A stretch of DNA of 64,000 nt, taken from positions 1 through 64,000 of the forward strand of contig JACAVV010000025.1 of the NCBI GenBank assembly GCA_024648695.1, in the 5' to 3' direction. How positions within the stretch are numbered: the first letter of the stretch is position 1; every line of letters starts with the position of its first letter. This DNA is from Nitrospina sp. (GTDB taxonomy: Bacteria; Nitrospinota; Nitrospinia; Nitrospinales; JACRGP01). The position numbers were made by a program, and so were the translations under genes. Below the pieces are notes generated by a model. The model saw only the letters and a program-made list of their open reading frames with translations, made no database searches and was not told where the DNA came from. Positions 17,808 through 29,715 of the stretch are shown in pieces.

Positions 17808-18200
17808 TCAATCATCGGAACTACGGGAATCGTCGTCATCGGATCCGCTATCGTGAGAATCACTTGCACTGTCTTCTGATGAAGATCCGGCATCGCGCAT
17901 ATTTTCTCGTTCATCCTCGTAGCGTTCCGACTCGTAGGTTCCATATTCATTTTCTTCCATGATGATTGTAGAGGGTCCGCCAGCTCCGCCTCCCCCACGA
18001 CCTCCGCGATTGAACCAGGAAGTCATATCGACTCCGAAATAACGCAGAGCCGCCAGTAGCAAAGTTACTGCCGCGGCTTCGTCCAGATTTCCAACAATGG
18101 GGAAAGCATCAGGGATTAATTCGATCAAACCGGCAGTGGGATTGATAATGTATACCAGAGAAACAAAACCTGCTAAAGCCACAAGTAGTTTCTTGAACAT
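17808..18200 (-). CDS. DUF1232 (YkvA-like) small membrane protein with acidic Ser-rich tail
   Basis: 130 residues. The first ~60 contain two short hydrophobic segments and the DUF1232 signature NPTAGLIELIPDAFPIVGNLDEA. A Gly-rich linker (RGGRGGGGAGG) and a ~50-residue tail dominated by Asp, Ser and Glu follow, likely disordered. The start has AGGGG upstream. The role of DUF1232 is not established; its neighbour ispD begins 13 bp upstream and may be co-transcribed. Confidence 0.75.
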   Translation of the reverse strand: MFKKLLVALAGFVSLVYIINPTAGLIELIPDAFPIVGNLDEAAAVTLLLAALRYFGVDMTSWFNRGGRGGGGAGGPSTIIMEENEYGTYESERYEDERENMRDAGSSSEDSASDSHDSGSDDDDSRSSDD

Positions 18201-18980: not shown

Positions 18981-20354
18981 CTAACTTAAAACCATCTCAA
19001 ATGCTTCTGAAAGATGCTTAACGGGGCACAAATCGATCCCTGCTTTTAACAAGACCTTGGATTTGTTTGGAACGTCCGGAATCACACAGCGTTTGAATCC
19101 CAACTTTTGCGCTTCGATCACGCGGGCTTCCAGTTGGCTCACCGACCGGACTTCGCCCGTCAGGCCCACCTCGCCGATCAACACCGCTTCGGGGTCCACT
19201 TCACGGTTTTGAAAACTGCTGGCAATAGCCGTGGCCACTCCCAAATCGATTGCGGGTTCCATTACTTTGATGCCTCCCGCAATATTGACAAAAATATCCT
19301 CTCCTTGCAATCCAAGTTCCAATCTTTTTTCCATAATCGCCACGAGCAGGGACATGCGATTGTAATCAAGACCTGTCGCCATGCGTCTCGGCATGCCCAC
19401 AGAGCTTGAAGCCGTGACCAGAGCCTGCACTTCCACCAGCAGAGGCCGCGTACCTTGAGCGCTTGCCACAATGGCGGATCCGGAGGAATTGGCAGGCCGC
19501 TCGCTTAAAAACAGTTCCGAAGGATTGGCCACCGGTCGCAATCCGTCAGCCATCATTTCGAAAACTCCAATCTCGGGTGTGGGGCCAAAACGGTTTTTGA
19601 TCGTGCGCAGAATCCGGTAAGCCTGTCCACGGTCGCCTTCAAAATAGACTACAGCATCGACGATATGCTCCAACGTTTTGGGTCCGGCAATGGCTCCTTC
19701 TTTGGTGATGTGACCGATGAGAATACCGGTCAAATCCCTTTGCTTGATTTCCTGAAAAATTTTAAAAGCCACTTCCCGCACCTGCCCCAGGGTTCCCGGC
19801 GCCGAAGTCAGCTCGTTTGAATAAAAGGTCTGCACGGAATCCAGCACCACCACAGCGGGCTTGATTTTATCAATAAGCCGGATCACTTCCTCAATACAAA
19901 TTTCCGGGGACACCAGCAAGTTTTCTGACAAGGTGTTTAATCGGCCGGCTCTGGATTTGATTTGTGCGGGTGATTCTTCACCGGAGACGTAAAGCACCTT
20001 CTGGCCACTATGGGCCAAGCCACCCATGCTTTGCAAAAGTAGAGTCGATTTTCCGATTCCCGGATCACCCCCCACAAGCACCATGGCTCCAGAAACCAGT
20101 CCTCCCCCCAAAACCCGGTCGAATTCACCTATGCCCGTACTGCGCCTGCGTTCCAGGGTCTCAGGAACCTCGGTCACCGGCTGGACATCATTTTTGCCTT
20201 GCGCCGATCTGCTACGTTTTTGAGAGGATGAGGATACTTCTGATTTTTCTTCTGCGAGGGTGTTCCACTGCTGGCACTCGGGACATTTACCCAACCATTT
20301 CGGGGCCTGATGCCCACAGGATTGACAAACGTAAACGGTAAGGTTTTTGGGCAT
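18981..20354 (-). CDS. radA: DNA repair protein RadA/Sms
   Basis: Branch-migration ATPase in recombination. The start at 20354 (MPKNLTVYVCQSCG) puts the zinc finger (CQSCG, then CPECQQW) at the N terminus as usual. A TTG at 20405 would add 17 residues. The RecA-like domain has Walker A GDPGIGKSTLL, the RadA-specific KNRFGPTPEIGVFEM (KNRFG) motif and a C-terminal Lon-like domain (IAGGIKVMEPAIDLG, LIGEVGLTGEVR). 457 residues is typical. No clear Shine-Dalgarno. Confidence 0.95.
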   Translation of the reverse strand: MPKNLTVYVCQSCGHQAPKWLGKCPECQQWNTLAEEKSEVSSSSQKRSRSAQGKNDVQPVTEVPETLERRRSTGIGEFDRVLGGGLVSGAMVLVGGDPGIGKSTLLLQSMGGLAHSGQKVLYVSGEESPAQIKSRAGRLNTLSENLLVSPEICIEEVIRLIDKIKPAVVVLDSVQTFYSNELTSAPGTLGQVREVAFKIFQEIKQRDLTGILIGHITKEGAIAGPKTLEHIVDAVVYFEGDRGQAYRILRTIKNRFGPTPEIGVFEMMADGLRPVANPSELFLSERPANSSGSAIVASAQGTRPLLVEVQALVTASSSVGMPRRMATGLDYNRMSLLVAIMEKRLELGLQGEDIFVNIAGGIKVMEPAIDLGVATAIASSFQNREVDPEAVLIGEVGLTGEVRSVSQLEARVIEAQKLGFKRCVIPDVPNKSKVLLKAGIDLCPVKHLSEAFEMVLS

Positions 20355-20457
20355 AGCTCGGGAGGAATCAGATAATTGAAAAAATACGCCGAGGTCCTTA
20401 GCCAAACACCAGCCTGGTAAAGACCTCGGCGAAATCGGAACTATTGCCTAACAGGAA

Positions 20458-22962
20458 TCATTTTATTTTTTTGAGAATATTGTTGTTGCGGTCGATATTC
20501 ACATTGGCCTTTCTTCTTAGATCTTCGAGGCGGTCCTTAATTTCATTATGCGCACTCAACAGTTTTTCCATCTTGCTTTGTTCCACAGCAATGGCTTTCA
20601 GAATATTGATCAATTCGCTCAGCTTGCGATTGGCCAGATCGACCGTTGCCATTCCCGGCTCCATCGTTTGCAGGGAGCGGTTCAACTTCTGATCCAGATC
20701 CCGGGAATGCGCCAGAACCGTTTGCAATATTTCGATCATACCATTGATTTTCTCTTCACTTACTCCACCTTGCTGTTGATCGAAACTTATTTTTTGCAAG
20801 GATTGCTCCAGGCGTGACTCGAATTGGGAAGAGTTCTGCGCCACCGATTGAAGCAGTTCAATGATCTTCGAGATCTTCTCATCTGTTAGCAACTGGCCTG
20901 ATCGGGCTAACTCCAGGGTCATCCGGTATTTATCCAGTTGTACCAGCGATTGTTCAATTTTGCGATCCATTTGTGAATCGTTACCGGCAATGGTTTGCAG
21001 AATATCGATCATTTTATTGACCTTTTCTTCATTCATTGCGGTTCCGGTACTTCCCGAAGAACCTGCGGATTGCAAGGACTGCATAATCTTGGCTTCCATC
21101 TGAGAAGAGTTTTGCAACAAATTGCGAAGCAAATCGATCATCTCATTAATTTTTTCGTCCGAAACCTTTGCTCCTGCCACACTGTCTTGAGACCTTTGCA
21201 AACCTTCATCCAGACGGGTTTCCAGTTTATTGGAACTGGCCGCCACTTGTTGCAGGATCTCTATGACTTTCGTCATTTTCTGATCCATCAACTCCGAACC
21301 CGAAACCGTAGTTTCCAGTTTCGATAAGGACTCTTTCAAACGGGTATCCAGCTGAGTGGAATTTGATGCCACGGTTTGCAGAATCTCAACCATTTTTGTG
21401 GTTTTTTTGTCAGCCAATTCTGCGTTCTGCGCCGAAGCGTCCATCTTCTGAATGGATTGATCCAGTTTGCTTCCTAACTGAGCCGAGTTCGAAGCTACCG
21501 TTTGGAGGATATCAATCATTTTCGTTACTTTTTCGTCAGTTAAAGAAGTGCTGGCCTGGCTGGATTCCATTTTTTGCAAGGAACCGGTTAACTGGTTTTC
21601 CACCTGCTTCGATGAATTAGCGACCGTTTGTAAAACCTCGATCATCTTGGTCAACTTGTCATCCGTTACCTTGAAGTTTTCCTGAGCCTGCTGGTTGCCG
21701 CTCAAACCCAGATCGATTTTTTTAATAGACTGATCCATTTTAGCTTCCAGGTTGCCAGTATGTTTTGCCAACTCCTTGGAAGTTTCCACAAGTTTATCGA
21801 AGTTATCCTCATTATTTTGGCTTAATTTGGCCATTTGCGTGACAGCCAGGTTCATGGAAGAGAAACTGGTTGTTATCGATTGATTCTGGCTTTGCAAAGC
21901 CGCAAGACTTTCAGCCAGTTTATTGAGCTTGGTTTCTGCGACCAGTAAATTCTCTTTCACCAGATCAATGTTTTTGGTCTGGTCGGTCAAACTTTCATGA
22001 AGGGTTTGATTGCCTTGAGAAACCGATTCAACTTTTGCGTTTAACACTTCGCGGAGTTTCTCCATCATTTTCCGGGTATTGTCCATGTGGTCTTTCAAAG
22101 CCACCAGATTATCGTCCAGAGCGTTTACCTGGCCCGCCATCTTCTGGTTTTCCTCCAGGGATTTGGTCATGATCTCAATCATTTTTTTATTACCGCCATC
22201 CAAAAGGTCAATTCCCGCTTGTAAGGATTGCTCGGTTCCCTGGATGGCTGTGCTGTTGCTCTCCAAACCTTTGTTCAAGGCCGCAATCAGAACTTCGCGG
22301 TCTTTGTCGTTCTGTTCCTGAATGGAGGGAATCAACTCGTTCTGGAAAATTCCCTGGGTTTCGGATAAGGTCTGGTTTTGATTGTTGATCTGGGTTTCGA
22401 TTTTACCCAAAGCCTCGTTGTTACTGCTTATCAAACCATCAAATGTTGTACTGTTGCTTTGCGCCAGGGATTCCATATCGCCTGCTAAAGCCTGTTGCAA
22501 TTGGGTGAGTTGAGAGTTCAGGTTATCCTGCAATTCCGTGCGGAGACTTTCACTATTTGCCTGCAAAGTGCTCCGGTGACTTTCCATAGTCGATTCCATA
22601 GTCTGGCGATTGGTTTCAATTTCCGTATTGATTCGGCTCGCCAGATCCGCAAGACTCTGTTTCATCACTGCCATTTCCTGCTTGAAATTTGCCTCGTTTT
22701 GTTCCAAGGACCCCCGCAGGCTGGGAAACATGCTTCTCAGCGAATTCACCCGGCTCAATATTTCAGCCTGGTCATTTTTCAGAGCTTTGAGTTTTTCATT
22801 TTCTAGGCCCGCGATGCGAAAACTGATTTTTTTCAGTTCCGTCAATATTCGGTTGTATCTTTTATCTTCGTCGTCATCAAAGAACTGGGCTTCACCGGGG
22901 GTTCCCGAAAATAGAATGCAAAGAACGAAAAGGAATATGAAACGAATCTTGGGGTTTTTCAT
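20458..22962 (-). CDS. Large periplasmic coiled-coil repeat protein in the cpoB/ybgF position
   Basis: 834 residues from the ATG at 22962. A signal peptide (MKNPKIRFIFLFVLC..., cleavage near GEAQ) precedes an acidic FFDDDEDKR stretch, then nearly continuous coiled coil rich in Gln, Ser, Asn and Leu. From about residue 436 onward there are nine repeats of the type DEKxxKMIxILQTVAxNSxQ. Their period is 42 residues in six of eight intervals and 43 or 49 in the others. There is no TPR domain as in CpoB, but the gene directly follows pal, where cpoB sits in other bacteria. I recognise no named family; a structural role in the envelope is an inference. Confidence 0.8.
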   Translation of the reverse strand: MKNPKIRFIFLFVLCILFSGTPGEAQFFDDDEDKRYNRILTELKKISFRIAGLENEKLKALKNDQAEILSRVNSLRSMFPSLRGSLEQNEANFKQEMAVMKQSLADLASRINTEIETNRQTMESTMESHRSTLQANSESLRTELQDNLNSQLTQLQQALAGDMESLAQSNSTTFDGLISSNNEALGKIETQINNQNQTLSETQGIFQNELIPSIQEQNDKDREVLIAALNKGLESNSTAIQGTEQSLQAGIDLLDGGNKKMIEIMTKSLEENQKMAGQVNALDDNLVALKDHMDNTRKMMEKLREVLNAKVESVSQGNQTLHESLTDQTKNIDLVKENLLVAETKLNKLAESLAALQSQNQSITTSFSSMNLAVTQMAKLSQNNEDNFDKLVETSKELAKHTGNLEAKMDQSIKKIDLGLSGNQQAQENFKVTDDKLTKMIEVLQTVANSSKQVENQLTGSLQKMESSQASTSLTDEKVTKMIDILQTVASNSAQLGSKLDQSIQKMDASAQNAELADKKTTKMVEILQTVASNSTQLDTRLKESLSKLETTVSGSELMDQKMTKVIEILQQVAASSNKLETRLDEGLQRSQDSVAGAKVSDEKINEMIDLLRNLLQNSSQMEAKIMQSLQSAGSSGSTGTAMNEEKVNKMIDILQTIAGNDSQMDRKIEQSLVQLDKYRMTLELARSGQLLTDEKISKIIELLQSVAQNSSQFESRLEQSLQKISFDQQQGGVSEEKINGMIEILQTVLAHSRDLDQKLNRSLQTMEPGMATVDLANRKLSELINILKAIAVEQSKMEKLLSAHNEIKDRLEDLRRKANVNIDRNNNILKKIK

Positions 22963-23132: not shown

Positions 23133-24530
23133 CTATCTGGAAACCAGAAAATGCGACCGTCTATTATTATACCAGCAATGGTCGGTACTATCGAAACAAA
23201 AAGGTTTCTCTTCGCCATAGCTGATCGTGTACAAACGGTCGCTTTCAATCCCCAGAGCCATCAAATACTGCTTGGTGGAATTGGCACGACGTTCACCTAA
23301 TCCCAAATTATAATTATTGGTTCCTCTTTCGTCACAATGCCCTTGAATTTCAACTTTTACTTTAGGGTGTTTTTTGAGCCATTGGGCATTTTGCTGAAGA
23401 ACACGTTTTGAGTTTTCATCCAGATCATAGCGATCAAAATTGAAATGAATATCCGATAAGTCTTCAATGGATTTGAAAGGCAATAAACGCGCTTCCTGAA
23501 GGCCGCTTAAAGAAGGTGATCCACCACCAGCATAAGCCGAACGTCCGCCGTCGCTACCATCGGAACCACCGAACATTCCGGAACCGCCACGCGATCCATT
23601 TCCAGATCCGGCCATTCCGCCATGACCATCAGACCCATTCATGCCGCCCAGGCCGCCTTGGCCACCGGAACCTGCCATTCCGCCATGACCATCAGACCCA
23701 TTCATGCCACCCAGGCCGCCTAAACCGCCTTGGCCACTGGAACCTGCCATACCACCCTGACTTCCAGATCCATTCATGCCGCTCAGGCCGCCGCTTCCAG
23801 ATCCGCTACCGCCAAGCCCGCCTAAACCGCCTTGGCCACCGGAACCTGCCATTCCGGGTCCGCTTTGAGCAAAATGCCGGTCGCCAGGAAACCCGGGTCC
23901 TCCATCGAGAGAACCGAACTCACTGGAACCTCCCCGGCCAAAAGCACCCCCGGATGAACCATCAGAAGACCCTGAACCGGAACCGTCGCCAAATCGACCG
24001 CCAGCACCGCTTCCGGCACCGAAACTACCACCAGCACCTGCCATACCCGGACCGCTTTGCTGGAAATTACGATTGCCCGGAAGACCGCCACTCATGCTTC
24101 CCGAACCACCTGGACCGCCAGGCGTGAATGATGATGGACTTTGAGGATGACCTGCAGACGCGGATTCGCTGGACCCAAAGGACCCTGAATCATCTCCAGG
24201 AAACGATTCATTTTCTCCAACCGTTCCCTGCTCAATAAAACCAAAAGGCTTGGAACCTTTTGAACCGCTCGAGCCGAATCCATTGGATGATCCGCTTCCA
24301 CCCCTGCTTCCAAGACCACCGGAAGCCATACCGCTTCCGGACCTGCCCGAGCCTGAACCTCCACGAAGAGCCGAACCACTAGATGACCCCGAAGAAGACC
24401 CTTGCCCTGAAACCATTGGAGCCGTACCATCTTCCTCCACCTCCGGAGGCATCAATTGCTTAGAACATGCACTAATGACTAAACCTGAAACCAGAACTAC
24501 CAGGAATTTTAAAAAAATTGTCCGTTTCAT
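23133..24530 (-). CDS. pal: Peptidoglycan-associated lipoprotein Pal with very long Gly/Ser linker
   Basis: Outer-membrane lipoprotein of the Tol-Pal system. Lipobox ISAC puts the lipidated Cys at residue 22. The C-terminal ~110 residues are an OmpA-type peptidoglycan-binding domain (IHFNFDRYDLDENSKR, GHCDERGTNNYNLGLGERRA). Between them is a ~300-residue, low-complexity Gly/Ser/Met linker, making 465 residues against about 170 in E. coli. The frame is unbroken and the Pal domain intact, so the linker is probably real. Its own promoter seems to lie at 24685-24713. Confidence 0.92.
   Translation of the reverse strand: MKRTIFLKFLVVLVSGLVISACSKQLMPPEVEEDGTAPMVSGQGSSSGSSSGSALRGGSGSGRSGSGMASGGLGSRGGSGSSNGFGSSGSKGSKPFGFIEQGTVGENESFPGDDSGSFGSSESASAGHPQSPSSFTPGGPGGSGSMSGGLPGNRNFQQSGPGMAGAGGSFGAGSGAGGRFGDGSGSGSSDGSSGGAFGRGGSSEFGSLDGGPGFPGDRHFAQSGPGMAGSGGQGGLGGLGGSGSGSGGLSGMNGSGSQGGMAGSSGQGGLGGLGGMNGSDGHGGMAGSGGQGGLGGMNGSDGHGGMAGSGNGSRGGSGMFGGSDGSDGGRSAYAGGGSPSLSGLQEARLLPFKSIEDLSDIHFNFDRYDLDENSKRVLQQNAQWLKKHPKVKVEIQGHCDERGTNNYNLGLGERRANSTKQYLMALGIESDRLYTISYGEEKPFCFDSTDHCWYNNRRSHFLVSR
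23611..23870. repeat. In-frame ~63-bp tandem repeats in the pal linker
   Basis: On the plus strand, units beginning GCCATTCCGCCATGACCATC at 23611 and 23674 are 63 bp apart, with diverged copies continuing to about 23870. They encode 21-residue units such as GGMAGSGGQGGLGG and GMNGSDGHGG. The period is a multiple of three, so copy-number change would lengthen or shorten the linker without a frameshift. Confidence 0.7.
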
Positions 24531-24910: not shown

Positions 24911-26308
24911 CTATCTTCCGTTCACGATTTTTCCTTTTGGGTGAGTCGACCATGCCGGACTCAGCCCACCCCCTGTCAGAAAAGTGAGCTGGCGCGATTT
25001 CCTGCTTCCAAGCCTTTGAATATAAATCTCTTCCCGTCCTCCTTGTCTCTGACTATAAGCGATGTAGCGTCCATCCGGCGACCAGCTTGGTTTTTCCTGG
25101 CTTCCGGAACCGGAAGTGAACTGGATGTGCTTTTTGGATTTGAAGTCGTAAATTTTTATGCGAAACTTTTTACCTACACGGGCGGTGTAAGCAAGCTTTT
25201 CGCCATCAGGAGACCAACTGGGATCGTCGTTATAATTCGAGTTAAATGTAATGCGGTCGATGCTCCGGTCTCCGCGCCGTGAATCCATTACATATATCTG
25301 CGGTGACCCGGTTCCCGACCGGTCAGAGGTGAACGCGATTTTTCTTCCATTGGGCGACCAGGTGGGAGATGTGTCAATATTGAAGTGCCGAGTCAGTCGT
25401 TTCAACTCCAGTGATTTTTCCAAAACATAAACTTCTGCATTTTCATCCTTGCTGAGCACCAAAGCGATCCGGTTTCCGTCAGGTGACCAGGCAGGCGCGG
25501 CATTCAGTCCAGGCATTTGCAGAAGGGTTTTGCGCGTTCTTTTTTGAACATCGATCACCATCAAATCGGGATTGCGGTCAATATAGGAAGTAAACAGTAT
25601 ATTTTTTCCGTCAGGCGACCAGGCAGGTGATAAAGTTACCGAGCGATCATTGGTGAGCTTTTTCAAATTATAGCCATCAAAATCGACCATATACAATTCT
25701 TTCTTTCGGCTCTCTTTGGAGATGAAGGCAATCTTGGTTTGCGACACTCCCTGAATACCGGTCAATTGCGCCACCACCTCGTCAGAAAAACGATGGATCA
25801 TAGAGCGCAGGAAGTTCCGGTTACCGCGATATTTTTTCCCCACGATGAAACGTTTTCGATCCACGTCATACAAGCGAAAAACAAAGGTATAGAATCCGCT
25901 TCGGCCCACTCCGTATTGAGTCTTGATCATCCATTGCGCCCCCACTCCGGCCCAGGCGCCGAAATTGACCCCTTGCGCCTGCCTCTCCTGATTTTCCAGG
26001 CTCTGGAATTTGGAGTGACTTATGGGCGTGAAAAATTCAGATAACTTCAAATCGTTTTCCAGGATTTTTCGAGAGTCCTCTCCGGAACGGGTCGGATCGC
26101 TTCCCTTTTGCAATTGAAACCCCTGGATGGCGATGCTGACCTTGGGCTGGGTTTTTTTCAGTAGCTCAATTTCAATATTGGACTGGGCTCTAACCGGGCC
26201 CGCACTCGCAAGGAGGGTCAGACCAAGAAAAAGGAAGAACGTTAATATCGCACGCTTCTTGACAAAATGGTTTGTTTTGGAAAGATGTTTCTCAATTTTT
26301 GTTTTCAT
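24911..26308 (-). CDS. tolB: Tol-Pal translocation protein TolB
   Basis: Periplasmic beta-propeller that binds Pal. 465 residues: signal peptide (hydrophobic TFFLFLGLTLLASAG, cleavage near VRAQ), an N-terminal domain up to about residue 185, then a propeller with repeated SPDGxxIAFTS-type blades (SPAWSPDGKNILFTSY, TWSPNGRKIAFTSD, SWSPDGRYIAYSQ). Starts 8 bp after the tolA stop. Length slightly above E. coli TolB (430). Confidence 0.94.
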   Translation of the reverse strand: MKTKIEKHLSKTNHFVKKRAILTFFLFLGLTLLASAGPVRAQSNIEIELLKKTQPKVSIAIQGFQLQKGSDPTRSGEDSRKILENDLKLSEFFTPISHSKFQSLENQERQAQGVNFGAWAGVGAQWMIKTQYGVGRSGFYTFVFRLYDVDRKRFIVGKKYRGNRNFLRSMIHRFSDEVVAQLTGIQGVSQTKIAFISKESRKKELYMVDFDGYNLKKLTNDRSVTLSPAWSPDGKNILFTSYIDRNPDLMVIDVQKRTRKTLLQMPGLNAAPAWSPDGNRIALVLSKDENAEVYVLEKSLELKRLTRHFNIDTSPTWSPNGRKIAFTSDRSGTGSPQIYVMDSRRGDRSIDRITFNSNYNDDPSWSPDGEKLAYTARVGKKFRIKIYDFKSKKHIQFTSGSGSQEKPSWSPDGRYIAYSQRQGGREEIYIQRLGSRKSRQLTFLTGGGLSPAWSTHPKGKIVNGR

Positions 26309-26316
26309 GGGATTTT

Positions 26317-28509
26317 TTACTCATCTTGAGGGACATATTTAAATTTGATAGTGATATGAAGGTTGGGTTCCGTCAATGCTTCCGGAAAAGGCTTAAACGG
26401 TTCGGACACCATGACGGCTTGCATGGCCAGGTTATTCAAGCTGTCCTGGCCTGCTTTTTTCTTAAACTCGGTTTCTGCAATATTTCCAGAGGGATAAACG
26501 AAAAACGATATGACCACCTCACTTTCTCCCTGACCCAGGGGTTTTTTCCAATTGGACATGACTGTACTTTCGATCATGCCTGCATACAGGCTCAACACAT
26601 CCGGATCGACCGTCTGCCTTGAAGCCTTTCGCGTTTGTTTGGCCTTGCTGGACCCTTGTTCTACGCGCGGCGCAATGGCGTCAAAGCTCTGCGCTCCCTG
26701 GTGCAAAGCCACCTTAATCTCCATTTCCCGCAAATTGCTGTTAAACCCTGAAGGTTTGGGAGCTACGGATTTCCTTTTGATGCGAACCGGTTCTACAGGG
26801 CTTTGCAGTTTGTTCAACTTTTCCATTAAAGGTTTCAGTGTTTCCTTTGATGACTTTTTGGGCACTTCAATATTTTGAATGGGTTTGGTCTTTGGGCGTG
26901 GTTTCACTTTCACCTTGCTTTCCATTTTGGAAAGCTTTTCCAACTCCTGAATCAATTGTGTCGATCCCGTTTGGGCCGACTTGTCAGATTTCAACTCGAT
27001 CCTGGATTTCGACAAGGCCAAAAATTCCAGTTCCTCTTTGGCCGGTTCTTTTTTCTGCGGTCCCTTTGATTTACGGACTTTCGCCTTGGGCCGCTCCACC
27101 GACTGCTTCATTTTTAGCTCCTGAAACTCCTTGAGCTTTTTGTTAACCGGCAGGGAAGCGACTTGCGCAACCTCCTGATTTATTGAGGTCTCAGCCTTAT
27201 TTCTCTTTATGGAATTGAGATTTTCAAAAGCTTTTAACAAATCGGAGTTTACCTCGGAATCCTCTGTTTCCTCATCTTTCAGCTTCAGGACTTTGGCTTT
27301 TTTATTTTTAAGGTTTTCAAGTTCTTTAAAAGAATCATCCAGATCTGGATCGGACCTGTTTTCGATTTTGGAAGTTTTTGGCCGTTTCTTTTTAAGGTCC
27401 TTCAACTCTTTAAACGTATCATCCAGGCTCAGGTCGGGCTGTTGTTTATTTATCCTGGCGGTTTTAGTGGAAACATCCGCCTTGATATTTTCGAACTCCC
27501 TGAAGGTCTCCTCCAAAGGCGCCAGGGCTTTTGGAGATTTTTTTGCGGCGGCTTTTATTTTTTTCTTGTTTAATTGCTGAAGGTCTTTGAACGACTTTTC
27601 GATTTTTGAATTGTCTTTTACAGGTTTTTTGGCAACCTGTTTCGGCTTCTTCCTGGCTTCCAGTTTTTTCAGCGATTCCTCCCAATCCAGCGATTGATTC
27701 GCCAGCTTTTTCGCCACTTGTTTTTGTGTCTTGCGAAGTTTTAACCGTTCCAGTTCAGTAATCGCTTTATCGTCCACGGGTCGACCGACCGAAGACCCAA
27801 AGTCGGGTTGCGACAAAGGCGCGAGCTTCTTCGATTTCAAGCTTTCCAATTCCCTTAAAGATCCGTCCAGACGCTCATTCCTGGGACGGGTTTGTCTGTT
27901 TGCCTGACGCTTTTTTGCCGCATGTTTCTTTTTTAAGGCTTTCAACTTATTGATTGACCGGTCCAGATGGGGCCCCCTGTTTTCGAGGCGGGAATCTGGG
28001 CGAGCGACTTCCAGCTTCGCCAGCTTATCCAGATTATTCACCAGATTGTCTGTGGGATAATCTTCGGCCTTCATAGACAGCGGTTTGTTATCCAGTTTAT
28101 TCAATCGGTTCAATAGTTTTTTAGAGATATCCGGTCGCGGCGGTTCAACTCTCTTTTTAGGAGGTGGCGATGCCTTGGGTTTTCTGGAAACTTTTTTTAT
28201 TGGAGAATTCTCAGGCGGTTTAGCCCCTTGTTTAATTTCAGGCGCTTTTGGAGGTTTGGCTACCGGTGTCGCTTCAGGAACTTTTTCCAGTTTTGCCATT
28301 TCCTTCATATCTACAGGCACAGCCTGACTGTCATCAATTCCATCCAGGGGAATTTCTACAAAATTGACGTGAAATGCCGGCGTGACGGGTTTCGACGGGA
28401 TTTTTGCTTTGGGAAGAAACATGATTACAGAGAAAGCCATCAGATGCAGGAAAACGGAATACACCAGCACCTGATTGTCATTCAAAGGGCCGCTAAATTC
28501 AAACTTCAT
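26317..28509 (-). CDS. tolA: TolA-like protein with expanded repeat region
   Basis: Inner-membrane anchored bridge to the outer membrane. 730 residues: one N-terminal membrane helix (about 15-33), a Pro/Lys-rich segment (about 85-130), a ~450-residue Lys/Glu/Leu-rich region and a TonB/TolA-type C-terminal domain (about 635-730). The middle has roughly a dozen copies of a motif like LDDTFKELKDLKKK. E. coli TolA has 421 residues. The ATG overlaps the tolR stop (ATGA). Position in tolQ-R-A-B-pal supports the assignment, as middle-region similarity to known TolA is low. Confidence 0.85.
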   Translation of the reverse strand: MKFEFSGPLNDNQVLVYSVFLHLMAFSVIMFLPKAKIPSKPVTPAFHVNFVEIPLDGIDDSQAVPVDMKEMAKLEKVPEATPVAKPPKAPEIKQGAKPPENSPIKKVSRKPKASPPPKKRVEPPRPDISKKLLNRLNKLDNKPLSMKAEDYPTDNLVNNLDKLAKLEVARPDSRLENRGPHLDRSINKLKALKKKHAAKKRQANRQTRPRNERLDGSLRELESLKSKKLAPLSQPDFGSSVGRPVDDKAITELERLKLRKTQKQVAKKLANQSLDWEESLKKLEARKKPKQVAKKPVKDNSKIEKSFKDLQQLNKKKIKAAAKKSPKALAPLEETFREFENIKADVSTKTARINKQQPDLSLDDTFKELKDLKKKRPKTSKIENRSDPDLDDSFKELENLKNKKAKVLKLKDEETEDSEVNSDLLKAFENLNSIKRNKAETSINQEVAQVASLPVNKKLKEFQELKMKQSVERPKAKVRKSKGPQKKEPAKEELEFLALSKSRIELKSDKSAQTGSTQLIQELEKLSKMESKVKVKPRPKTKPIQNIEVPKKSSKETLKPLMEKLNKLQSPVEPVRIKRKSVAPKPSGFNSNLREMEIKVALHQGAQSFDAIAPRVEQGSSKAKQTRKASRQTVDPDVLSLYAGMIESTVMSNWKKPLGQGESEVVISFFVYPSGNIAETEFKKKAGQDSLNNLAMQAVMVSEPFKPFPEALTEPNLHITIKFKYVPQDE

Positions 28510-28946
28510 CGATCCGGGGGTTCGGTCACCATTCCAATACGCTGGAATCCCGAACGTTTAATACTTGCGAGGATTTTTACCACAAAGCCATAATCGAGGC
28601 TTTTGTCGGCACGGAAATAGATCTCGCCATCCTCATTGGACTTCATATAGCTGTCCAGCTTTTCTGAAAGCAGGACCACGTTGGGAATTTCTTCCTGGTT
28701 CCAGAAGATTTTCCGGTTTCCCTTAAGACTGATAGTTGGGACTTCCTTAACCTCAACGGCAGAGGTACCTTCCTGGGGCAGTTGCACATCAATGCCATGT
28801 TGCATGAGGGGCGCGGTGATCATAAATATAACCAGGAGGACCAACATCACATCCACGAACGGGGTGACGTTGATTTCGGCCATCATCGGACGGCGCGCGG
28901 CCCTTTGGGATTTTTCCAGGGAATGATTCAAAATCGGTGATGCCAT
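28506..28946 (-). CDS. tolR: Biopolymer transport protein TolR (ExbD family)
   Basis: Forms the proton channel with TolQ and energises TolA. The 146-residue protein has the MAEINVTPFVDVMLVLLVIFMITAP segment holding the proton-carrying Asp in its single membrane helix, followed by a periplasmic domain (YFRADKSLDYGFVVKILASIKRSG). Stop overlaps tolA. Follows tolQ by 55 bp. Confidence 0.93.
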   Translation of the reverse strand: MASPILNHSLEKSQRAARRPMMAEINVTPFVDVMLVLLVIFMITAPLMQHGIDVQLPQEGTSAVEVKEVPTISLKGNRKIFWNQEEIPNVVLLSEKLDSYMKSNEDGEIYFRADKSLDYGFVVKILASIKRSGFQRIGMVTEPPDR

Positions 28947-29001: not shown

Positions 29002-29715
29002 CTATCTTAAAAAAGTTTTTTCCGCGAGATAAATGAACTCATCGGAAAAATCGTCCATTCTGCTGGTGAACAGGCGGATTTTGTTGCTGAGATAATTATA
29101 AAAAATGACTGCCGGAATCGCGGCAACCAACCCTGCCGCGGTTGCAATCAAGGCTTCGGCAATTCCCGGAGCCACGCCGCCAATACTGGCGGATCCTTTG
29201 ACACTGATAGCTCGAAAAGAGGTCATGATTCCCCAAACGGTTCCAAACAGCCCGATGAACGGCGTGGTGCTACCGGTGGTGGCAAGAAAGTCCAGCCGGT
29301 GCGCCAGGTGGTCGATCTCTTTATTGATTGTCTTGTTCATGGCCAATGTAATGCCTTTGATATCACTGATAGAAAGCTCGGTTTCGGGATGATTTTTGGC
29401 ATCTTCCCTGTCGACCTTGCTCATCCGCAACAACTCGTTGTACCCGCTGGCGAACACCCGGGCTATGGGACTGTATTTCAAACTGCGGGAAAAGTTGTAT
29501 ATATTGGTAAGGCTTTCGGACTTGGAAAAAATAGACAAAAACCTTCCATCCTGCTCTTTCGCCATTCGGTACACAAAAAATTTCTGTAATATGATTGCCC
29601 AGGACATGATGGAAAAAATCACCAGGACGAGAATGACACTTTTCCCCATCCAGCCCGAATGAGATATCATTTCCATGACCGACATGGAATAACTTTCTAC
29701 GTTAGCTTCCGGCAT
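29002..29715 (-). CDS. tolQ: Biopolymer transport protein TolQ (ExbB family)
   Basis: Proton-channel subunit with three membrane helices. 237 residues: helix one near residues 20-45, the long cytoplasmic loop and the conserved LATTGSTTPFIGLFGTVWGIM motif, then GGVAPGIAEALIATAAGLVAAIPAVIFYN. It is first gene of the tol-pal cluster; the promoter should lie in 29716-29900. Confidence 0.94.
   Translation of the reverse strand: MPEANVESYSMSVMEMISHSGWMGKSVILVLVIFSIMSWAIILQKFFVYRMAKEQDGRFLSIFSKSESLTNIYNFSRSLKYSPIARVFASGYNELLRMSKVDREDAKNHPETELSISDIKGITLAMNKTINKEIDHLAHRLDFLATTGSTTPFIGLFGTVWGIMTSFRAISVKGSASIGGVAPGIAEALIATAAGLVAAIPAVIFYNYLSNKIRLFTSRMDDFSDEFIYLAEKTFLR

Follow-up and report, generated by a model that had tools for sequence, protein, structure and literature searches.

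A TPR-less, coiled-coil protein at the cpoB position of the Nitrospinales tol-pal cluster with a total length coupled to that of TolA

The gene behind pal in Nitrospinales, a group of marine nitrite-oxidising bacteria, encodes a novel form of the cpoB-position protein that lacks TPRs, is specific to this order and has a total length coupled to that of TolA. We refer to this protein as X and describe it from a stretch of 64,000 nucleotides of a Nitrospina sp. genome (assembly GCA_024648695.1, contig JACAVV010000025.1; hereafter the window) and from its relatives. Throughout the order the TPR half of CpoB appears to have been dropped at the tol-pal locus, while a pure coil was kept with a length tuned to TolA (correlation ~0.9 after correction for ancestry). 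TolA carries force between the two membranes, and the finding bears on how this force is transmitted through the periplasm and on the role of the CpoB coil.

The tol-pal locus and the anatomy of X

The genes of the window follow the order tolQ-tolR-tolA-tolB-pal-X-radA-ispD on one strand (Table 1), with tolQ to pal and radA identified by Pfam and ispD by its sequence and the conserved gene order. X is placed directly behind pal in all homologous loci that have the upstream contig present (31/31), and the order X-radA-ispD is kept in most relatives. The preliminary description of an exported protein of 834 residues at the cpoB position is hence confirmed by the open reading frame, the signal peptide and the Pfam-identified neighbours. 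Its linkage to tol-pal holds across the family as well, and the sole unlinked homologue found consists of 175 aa from the N-terminal part of an X paralogue (L055 6416-6943; G009) outside the tol-pal cluster. Some variation was observed around these genes. For instance, radA is absent between X and ispD in one genus (g8: L031, L041, L042 and L049), and a small acidic-tailed protein (17808-18200) is conserved beside ispD in many relatives. The Pal of the window, the longest in our set, has a Gly/Ser-rich linker of ~300 residues with a 72-bp tandem repeat at 23653-23792.

Table 1. Features of the tol-pal locus in the window, with the evidence for each
Feature	Position	Strand	Basis or remark
TolQ	29002..29715	minus	Pfam
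TolR	28506..28946	minus	Pfam
TolA, 730 aa, linker ~585 aa	26317..28509	minus	Pfam; longest among all TolA compared
14 short amphipathic helical motifs in the TolA linker, residues 129-571	26797..28125	minus	motif scan; AlphaFold2 helices
TolB, near-constant length in relatives (negative control)	24911..26308	minus	Pfam
Pal, 465 aa, C-terminal OmpA domain after a long Gly/Ser-rich linker	23133..24530	minus	Pfam
X, 834-aa exported all-helical repeat protein, cpoB position	20458..22962	minus	ATG at 22962, stop TGA
X signal peptide, residues 1-25, without lipobox	22888..22962	minus	sequence and alignment of homologues
X conserved N-terminal helical region, ~residues 26-429	21676..22887	minus	periodicity, alignment, AlphaFold2, profile comparison
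X nine 42-residue repeats, residues 430-814, core [MVI][IV][DE][IVL]L[QRK]x[VIL]	20521..21675	minus	autocorrelation, repeat listing
X family C-terminal signature DLRRKANVNIxRNxxI, residues 812-833	20464..20529	minus	most conserved part of X (alignment)
RadA, directly downstream of X	18981..20405	minus	Pfam

The signal peptide of X is probably cleaved in the style of type I signal peptidase after A25, a residue that is invariant across the alignment of 30 homologues. The alignment also shows a motif conserved across the family at the mature N-terminus (FF/LFGSDEENWxxxxxELKKIN), nearly invariant P80 and Gly84, and another conserved Pro near residue 213. The hydrophobic period is 3.64 (hendecad-like) over residues 31-220 and 3.51-3.52 (heptads) over residues 221-770.

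The repeat cores (MIEVLQTV, MIDILQTV etc.) begin at residues 440, 482, 524, 566, 608, 651, 700, 742 and 784, and the nine repeats with spacings of 42, 42, 42, 42, 43, 49, 42 and 42 reported in the preliminary description are therefore exact when counted by core positions. Over residues 416-770 the autocorrelation is highest at lag 42 (z = 15.6, against a maximum of 4.2 among 300 shuffles), and it still reaches z = 14.0 against shuffles that preserve the heptad phase (maximum 3.8), indicating a periodicity that exceeds coiled-coil composition. These shuffle tests rule out that the repeat arose by chance or from composition. Copies 1-8 share 8-21 of 42 residues in pairwise comparisons, while the ninth copy, which diverges most (5-9 of 42), is the counterpart of the family's conserved C-terminal unit. 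In the alignment, a unit near the C-terminus has the core RLIEILKxIAxEQ. A tandem-repeat scan shows no repeat left at the DNA level inside the X gene; hence the expansion is not recent.

X has no match among the curated Pfam and NCBIfam families. A cytoplasmic coil of the SMC/Rad50 type was rejected on account of the signal peptide and an SMC score of 26 bits against a cut-off of 567, which represents coil similarity only. Apolipoprotein A-type families are matched by five of 30 homologues (best E 1.5e-4; one score of 17 bits against a cut-off of 90) and apolipoprotein-type PDB entries are matched with E 1e-5 to 1e-2, both being matches of the kind that any amphipathic repeat gives.

An AlphaFold2 monomer model of X is of low confidence (pLDDT 64, pTM 0.24) and all-helical, the helix being interrupted near residue 209, at 395-435 and at the majority of the repeat boundaries. 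Modelled as one continuous helix, X would measure 120 nm in the window genome and 46-84 nm in the relatives computed. Since ~120 nm is far beyond an ordinary periplasm, a straight ruler perpendicular to the membranes would require an extraordinarily deep periplasm and is otherwise unlikely; it is more plausible that X forms hairpins or a segmented chain or takes an oblique course. The long regular rod first proposed from the six-heptad unit, if taken as straight and perpendicular, is thus not supported by its computed length or by the breaks in the model.

Distribution of X and copy number of the repeat

By whole-genome search, X was detected in 36 of the 41 relatives and in all 25 well-assembled genomes. 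In a profile search of 77 Nitrospinota genomes, 57 were positive at E 0.001 with every strong match within Nitrospinales, and only two weak matches came from the 13 genomes of other Nitrospinota orders. As judged by these searches, the X family is confined to Nitrospinales. The X loci carry the titles Nitrospina, Nitrospinaceae, Nitrospinae, Nitrospinia or Nitrospinota, with the exception of L114, which is titled Nitrospirae (SZUA-350), encodes a Nitrospinales X and is probably misnamed.

The proteins of the relatives comprise 335-604 aa and possess 1-3 clear repeat copies, compared with 834 aa and nine copies in the window genome, and the nine-copy array is hence specific to the window lineage. 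The giant size and the 42-residue array of the preliminary description do not characterise the family, and the array was discarded as a family hallmark.

Relation of X to CpoB

The TPR domain that the preliminary description found missing was not detected by Pfam and profile searches in X or in 29 homologues, and the X gene is absent from the tol_pal_ybgF matches in its genome. The X locus is the top match to PF16331 (TolA_bind_tri) in the genome, although its 20.8 bits lie under the cut-off of 30.1, and four of 30 homologues fall below E 0.05 for the same family. Moreover, the mature N-terminus of X is matched by hhalign to proteins of other orders at the cpoB position (probability 86.6, E 4e-6), which is a modest match. 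The N-terminal match and the sub-threshold match to PF16331 support, without proving, a descent of X from the CpoB coil, while the tendency of coiled-coil homology to give false matches and the modest N-terminal match count against it.

Other families of Nitrospinota differ at the cpoB position. In f9 (five loci, L139-L143) a lipoprotein with a coil and a C-terminal TPR_6/YfiO domain is found, which is an ordinary CpoB, while f5 and f7 (L135-L137) encode exported, TPR-less, all-coil proteins of 231-337 aa; nothing is found behind pal in f6 (L138 and L144), which is thus without X there. An unlinked coil-plus-TPR lipoprotein of CpoB type is also encoded in the window genome (G000 contig 6 13302-14237; L146 5303-6238), and is matched in 31 of 31 good Nitrospinota genomes. 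Strong matches come from Nitrospinales and clear ones from f5, f6 and a single f7 genome (best E 1e-28 to 1e-33), whereas those from f9, where tol-pal keeps a true CpoB, are weak (~1e-12 to 1e-14). This distribution suggests that the TPR function of CpoB may have moved to the unlinked lipoprotein. The claim that X replaces CpoB is therefore valid with regard to position, whereas its N-terminus is weakly CpoB-related and a CpoB-type lipoprotein persists elsewhere in the genome. The gene of this lipoprotein adjoins a lipopolysaccharide/capsule-type gene group (G000 contig 6). Our literature search found no paper naming CpoB together with Nitrospina.

Length covariation of X and TolA

In genomes with intact genes (33 genomes for X and TolA) we measured how long X, TolA, Pal and TolB are, and independent contrasts were calculated on a tree from concatenated TolB, TolQ, TolR, RadA and IspD. 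The length of X follows that of TolA closely across the 33 genomes (rho 0.88, or 0.87 without the window genome; r 0.93, or 0.88 without it), and the contrasts retain this relation (r = 0.935; 0.908 without the window genome and 0.87 without four extreme taxa). The slope is 0.69-0.71 with the window genome and 0.52 without it. None of the controls shows such contrasts with X length: TolB gives -0.03, TamB -0.30 (n = 9), IF-2 0.25 (0.02 without the window genome), the unlinked coil-TPR lipoprotein -0.30 and genome size 0.29, and genome size was accordingly dismissed as a confounder. Pal also co-varies with X (contrasts 0.72; 0.50 without the window genome). However, X-Pal vanishes when TolA is held constant (partial correlation -0.01), while X-TolA persists given Pal (0.86) and given TonB-C (0.83).

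No single segment of X correlates with TolA length above 0.57, indicating that the total length is matched and that lineages add length in different parts of X; a match restricted to one particular part was ruled out. Charge complementarity was rejected as well: the window pair is opposite in charge (X -22, TolA linker +56) but the relatives are inconsistent.

The motifs of the TolA linker (for instance LDDSFKELENLKNK) are spaced mostly by 24-34 residues. A motif model trained outside the family of the window recovers 12-13 copies in the window TolA, compared with 0.3-0.8 in shuffles, and seven in the sister genome, while the same model detects none in the window genome's own long TonB proteins. 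AlphaFold2 predicts short helices at the motifs, with low-confidence stretches between them. The 30-residue autocorrelation of the linker is not significant (z 2.7 at lag 29), and hence the evidence for the array is the motif scan together with the AlphaFold2 helices. Motif count and X length are uncorrelated across the order (rho 0.05), which rules out motif number as the quantity matched to X. Outside the order, the motif occurs in TolA of f5, f6 and f7 and is absent from that of f9. Two copies per genome were found by the scan in f6 and in one f7 genome; in the partial f5 and f7 sequences the motif was recognised by eye. This pattern parallels the distribution of the unlinked lipoprotein and, f6 excepted, that of the TPR-less cpoB-position protein. 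As f6 possesses two motifs in TolA without X behind pal, the motif may serve another partner.

Possible explanations of the length coupling

The tracking of TolA by X points to a physical match between the two proteins across the envelope. The explanation we prefer, and to which we give about an even chance, is that X is a TPR-less, cpoB-derived, segmented scaffold of the periplasm alongside TolA, with its total length held by selection to the TolA linker. Soluble periplasmic X would have descended from the N-terminal coil of CpoB, or taken over its position, with the TPR part lost at the tol-pal locus in this Nitrospinota branch. Working beside TolA as a segmented helical scaffold, it could accompany TolA, guide it or stiffen it on the way from the inner membrane to Pal/TolB at the outer membrane, and selection would keep its total length to that of the TolA linker. 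Many lineages would attain length by adding helix at different places, while in the window lineage the 42-residue unit would have been amplified from 1-3 to nine copies and the ~30-residue units of TolA from ~7 (sister genome) to 14. The contact between X and TolA, like the oligomeric state and the mechanical role of X, is something that we infer, and the binding of TolA by E. coli CpoB through TPRs (PMC7391070), which are absent from X, counts against such a contact. The spacer or ruler working with Tol-Pal that was first envisaged thus gains from the length covariation, but a straight perpendicular form is unlikely, and as a ruler X would have to fold back, be built of segments or lie obliquely.

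The strongest alternative, which we regard as rather unlikely, is that all these lengths depend on how deep the periplasm is. X, TolA and Pal would then bridge one gap without contact between X and TolA, and their lengths would follow a periplasm that is unusually deep in the window organism. A weak correlation of TolA and TonB linker lengths (0.28), with periplasm width suggested as its cause, is known from another study (PMC12204202), and the covariation of Pal with X points in the same direction, although it disappears once TolA is accounted for. Were depth the sole cause, other spanning proteins should follow X, and the lengths of TonB and TamB were compared for this reason. TonB-B has 587 aa in the window genome against 311-449 in relatives and TonB-C 645 against 315-496, with contrasts of 0.80 and 0.76 with X, and two TonB proteins that are longest in the window genome favour a common cause over a partnership of X and TolA. 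Without the window genome, however, these contrasts fall to 0.46 or less while X-TolA stays at 0.91. Moreover, TonB-A is near constant (305-341 aa), and TamB, taken as another periplasm-bridging protein, is of ordinary length in the window genome (1478 aa) and uncorrelated with X. A deep periplasm may hence contribute in the window lineage, but it does not account for the close coupling of X and TolA in the rest of the order. No periplasm depth for Nitrospina was found in a search of the ultrastructure literature. The two long TonB genes are located at L191 and L203 (G000 contigs 5 and 22; 645 and 587 aa) and are ~1.3-2 times as long as those of relatives.

A stricter form of matching, in which X and TolA form a register-matched track with each ~30-residue TolA module docking on one 42-residue X module and units added in step, seems improbable. 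The ratio 30/42 = 0.71 equals the slope with the window genome, and the change from the sister to the window genome involves ~7 TolA motifs and ~6 X repeats, both in favour of such a track. However, the lower slope without the window genome and motif counts that do not track X elsewhere argue against it.

We judge it quite unlikely that X is a scaffold in its own right, extending along the septum, the peptidoglycan or the surface of a membrane and clustered with tol-pal through a role in division and not through binding of TolA. A straight X too long for an ordinary periplasm even in the relatives would fit this arrangement, as would the N-terminal periodicity and the weak apolipoprotein-type matches, both of which amphipathic surface helices can show, but such matches are unspecific and the arrangement offers no reason for the match of total length to TolA. 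Very unlikely is a lineage-wide expansion of low-complexity, linker and coiled-coil sequence, in which X and TolA would share a mutational tendency without selection on length: the linkers of TolA, Pal, TonB-B and TonB-C and X itself are all long in the window genome, but IF-2, TolB, the unlinked lipoprotein and genome size fail to explain X-TolA, the correlation persists in the 32 other genomes, and total length still tracks TolA where different parts of X have gained length by lineage.

The coupling thus predicts that X is either a direct partner of TolA or a proxy for periplasm depth, and since the species already differ more than twofold in the lengths of X and TolA, they provide a natural experiment in length variation.

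Comparison with known systems

X shares with CpoB (YbgF) the place of the last tol-pal gene behind pal, the export and an N-terminal coiled coil. CpoB of E. coli is a 28 kDa protein that assembles into a coiled-coil trimer and whose TPRs bind the TolA linker (PMC7391070), whereas X lacks TPRs, comprises 335-834 aa, is nearly all coil, carries tandem 42-residue repeats in the window genome and has a total length matched to TolA. Regulation of the transpeptidase PBP1B is a further trait of CpoB. The CpoB of f9 has the locus and the coiled-coil N-terminal part in common with X, but is a lipoprotein with C-terminal TPR_6/YfiO and occurs with a TolA that has no helical motif. The coils of f5 and f7 resemble X in being exported, TPR-less and all coil at the cpoB position, but they have only 231-337 aa and possess no C-terminal signature of Nitrospinales. 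The unlinked lipoprotein has a CpoB-like architecture, but is located outside the tol-pal cluster and its length is independent of TolA. Envelope-spanning lengths that co-vary among species are also known from the linkers of TolA and TonB (PMC12204202); in that case the correlation is 0.28, and in ours it exceeds 0.9 between TolA and a non-motor partner, with a TolA linker of ~585 aa in the window genome compared with 110-335 aa in Proteobacteria (PMC12204202).
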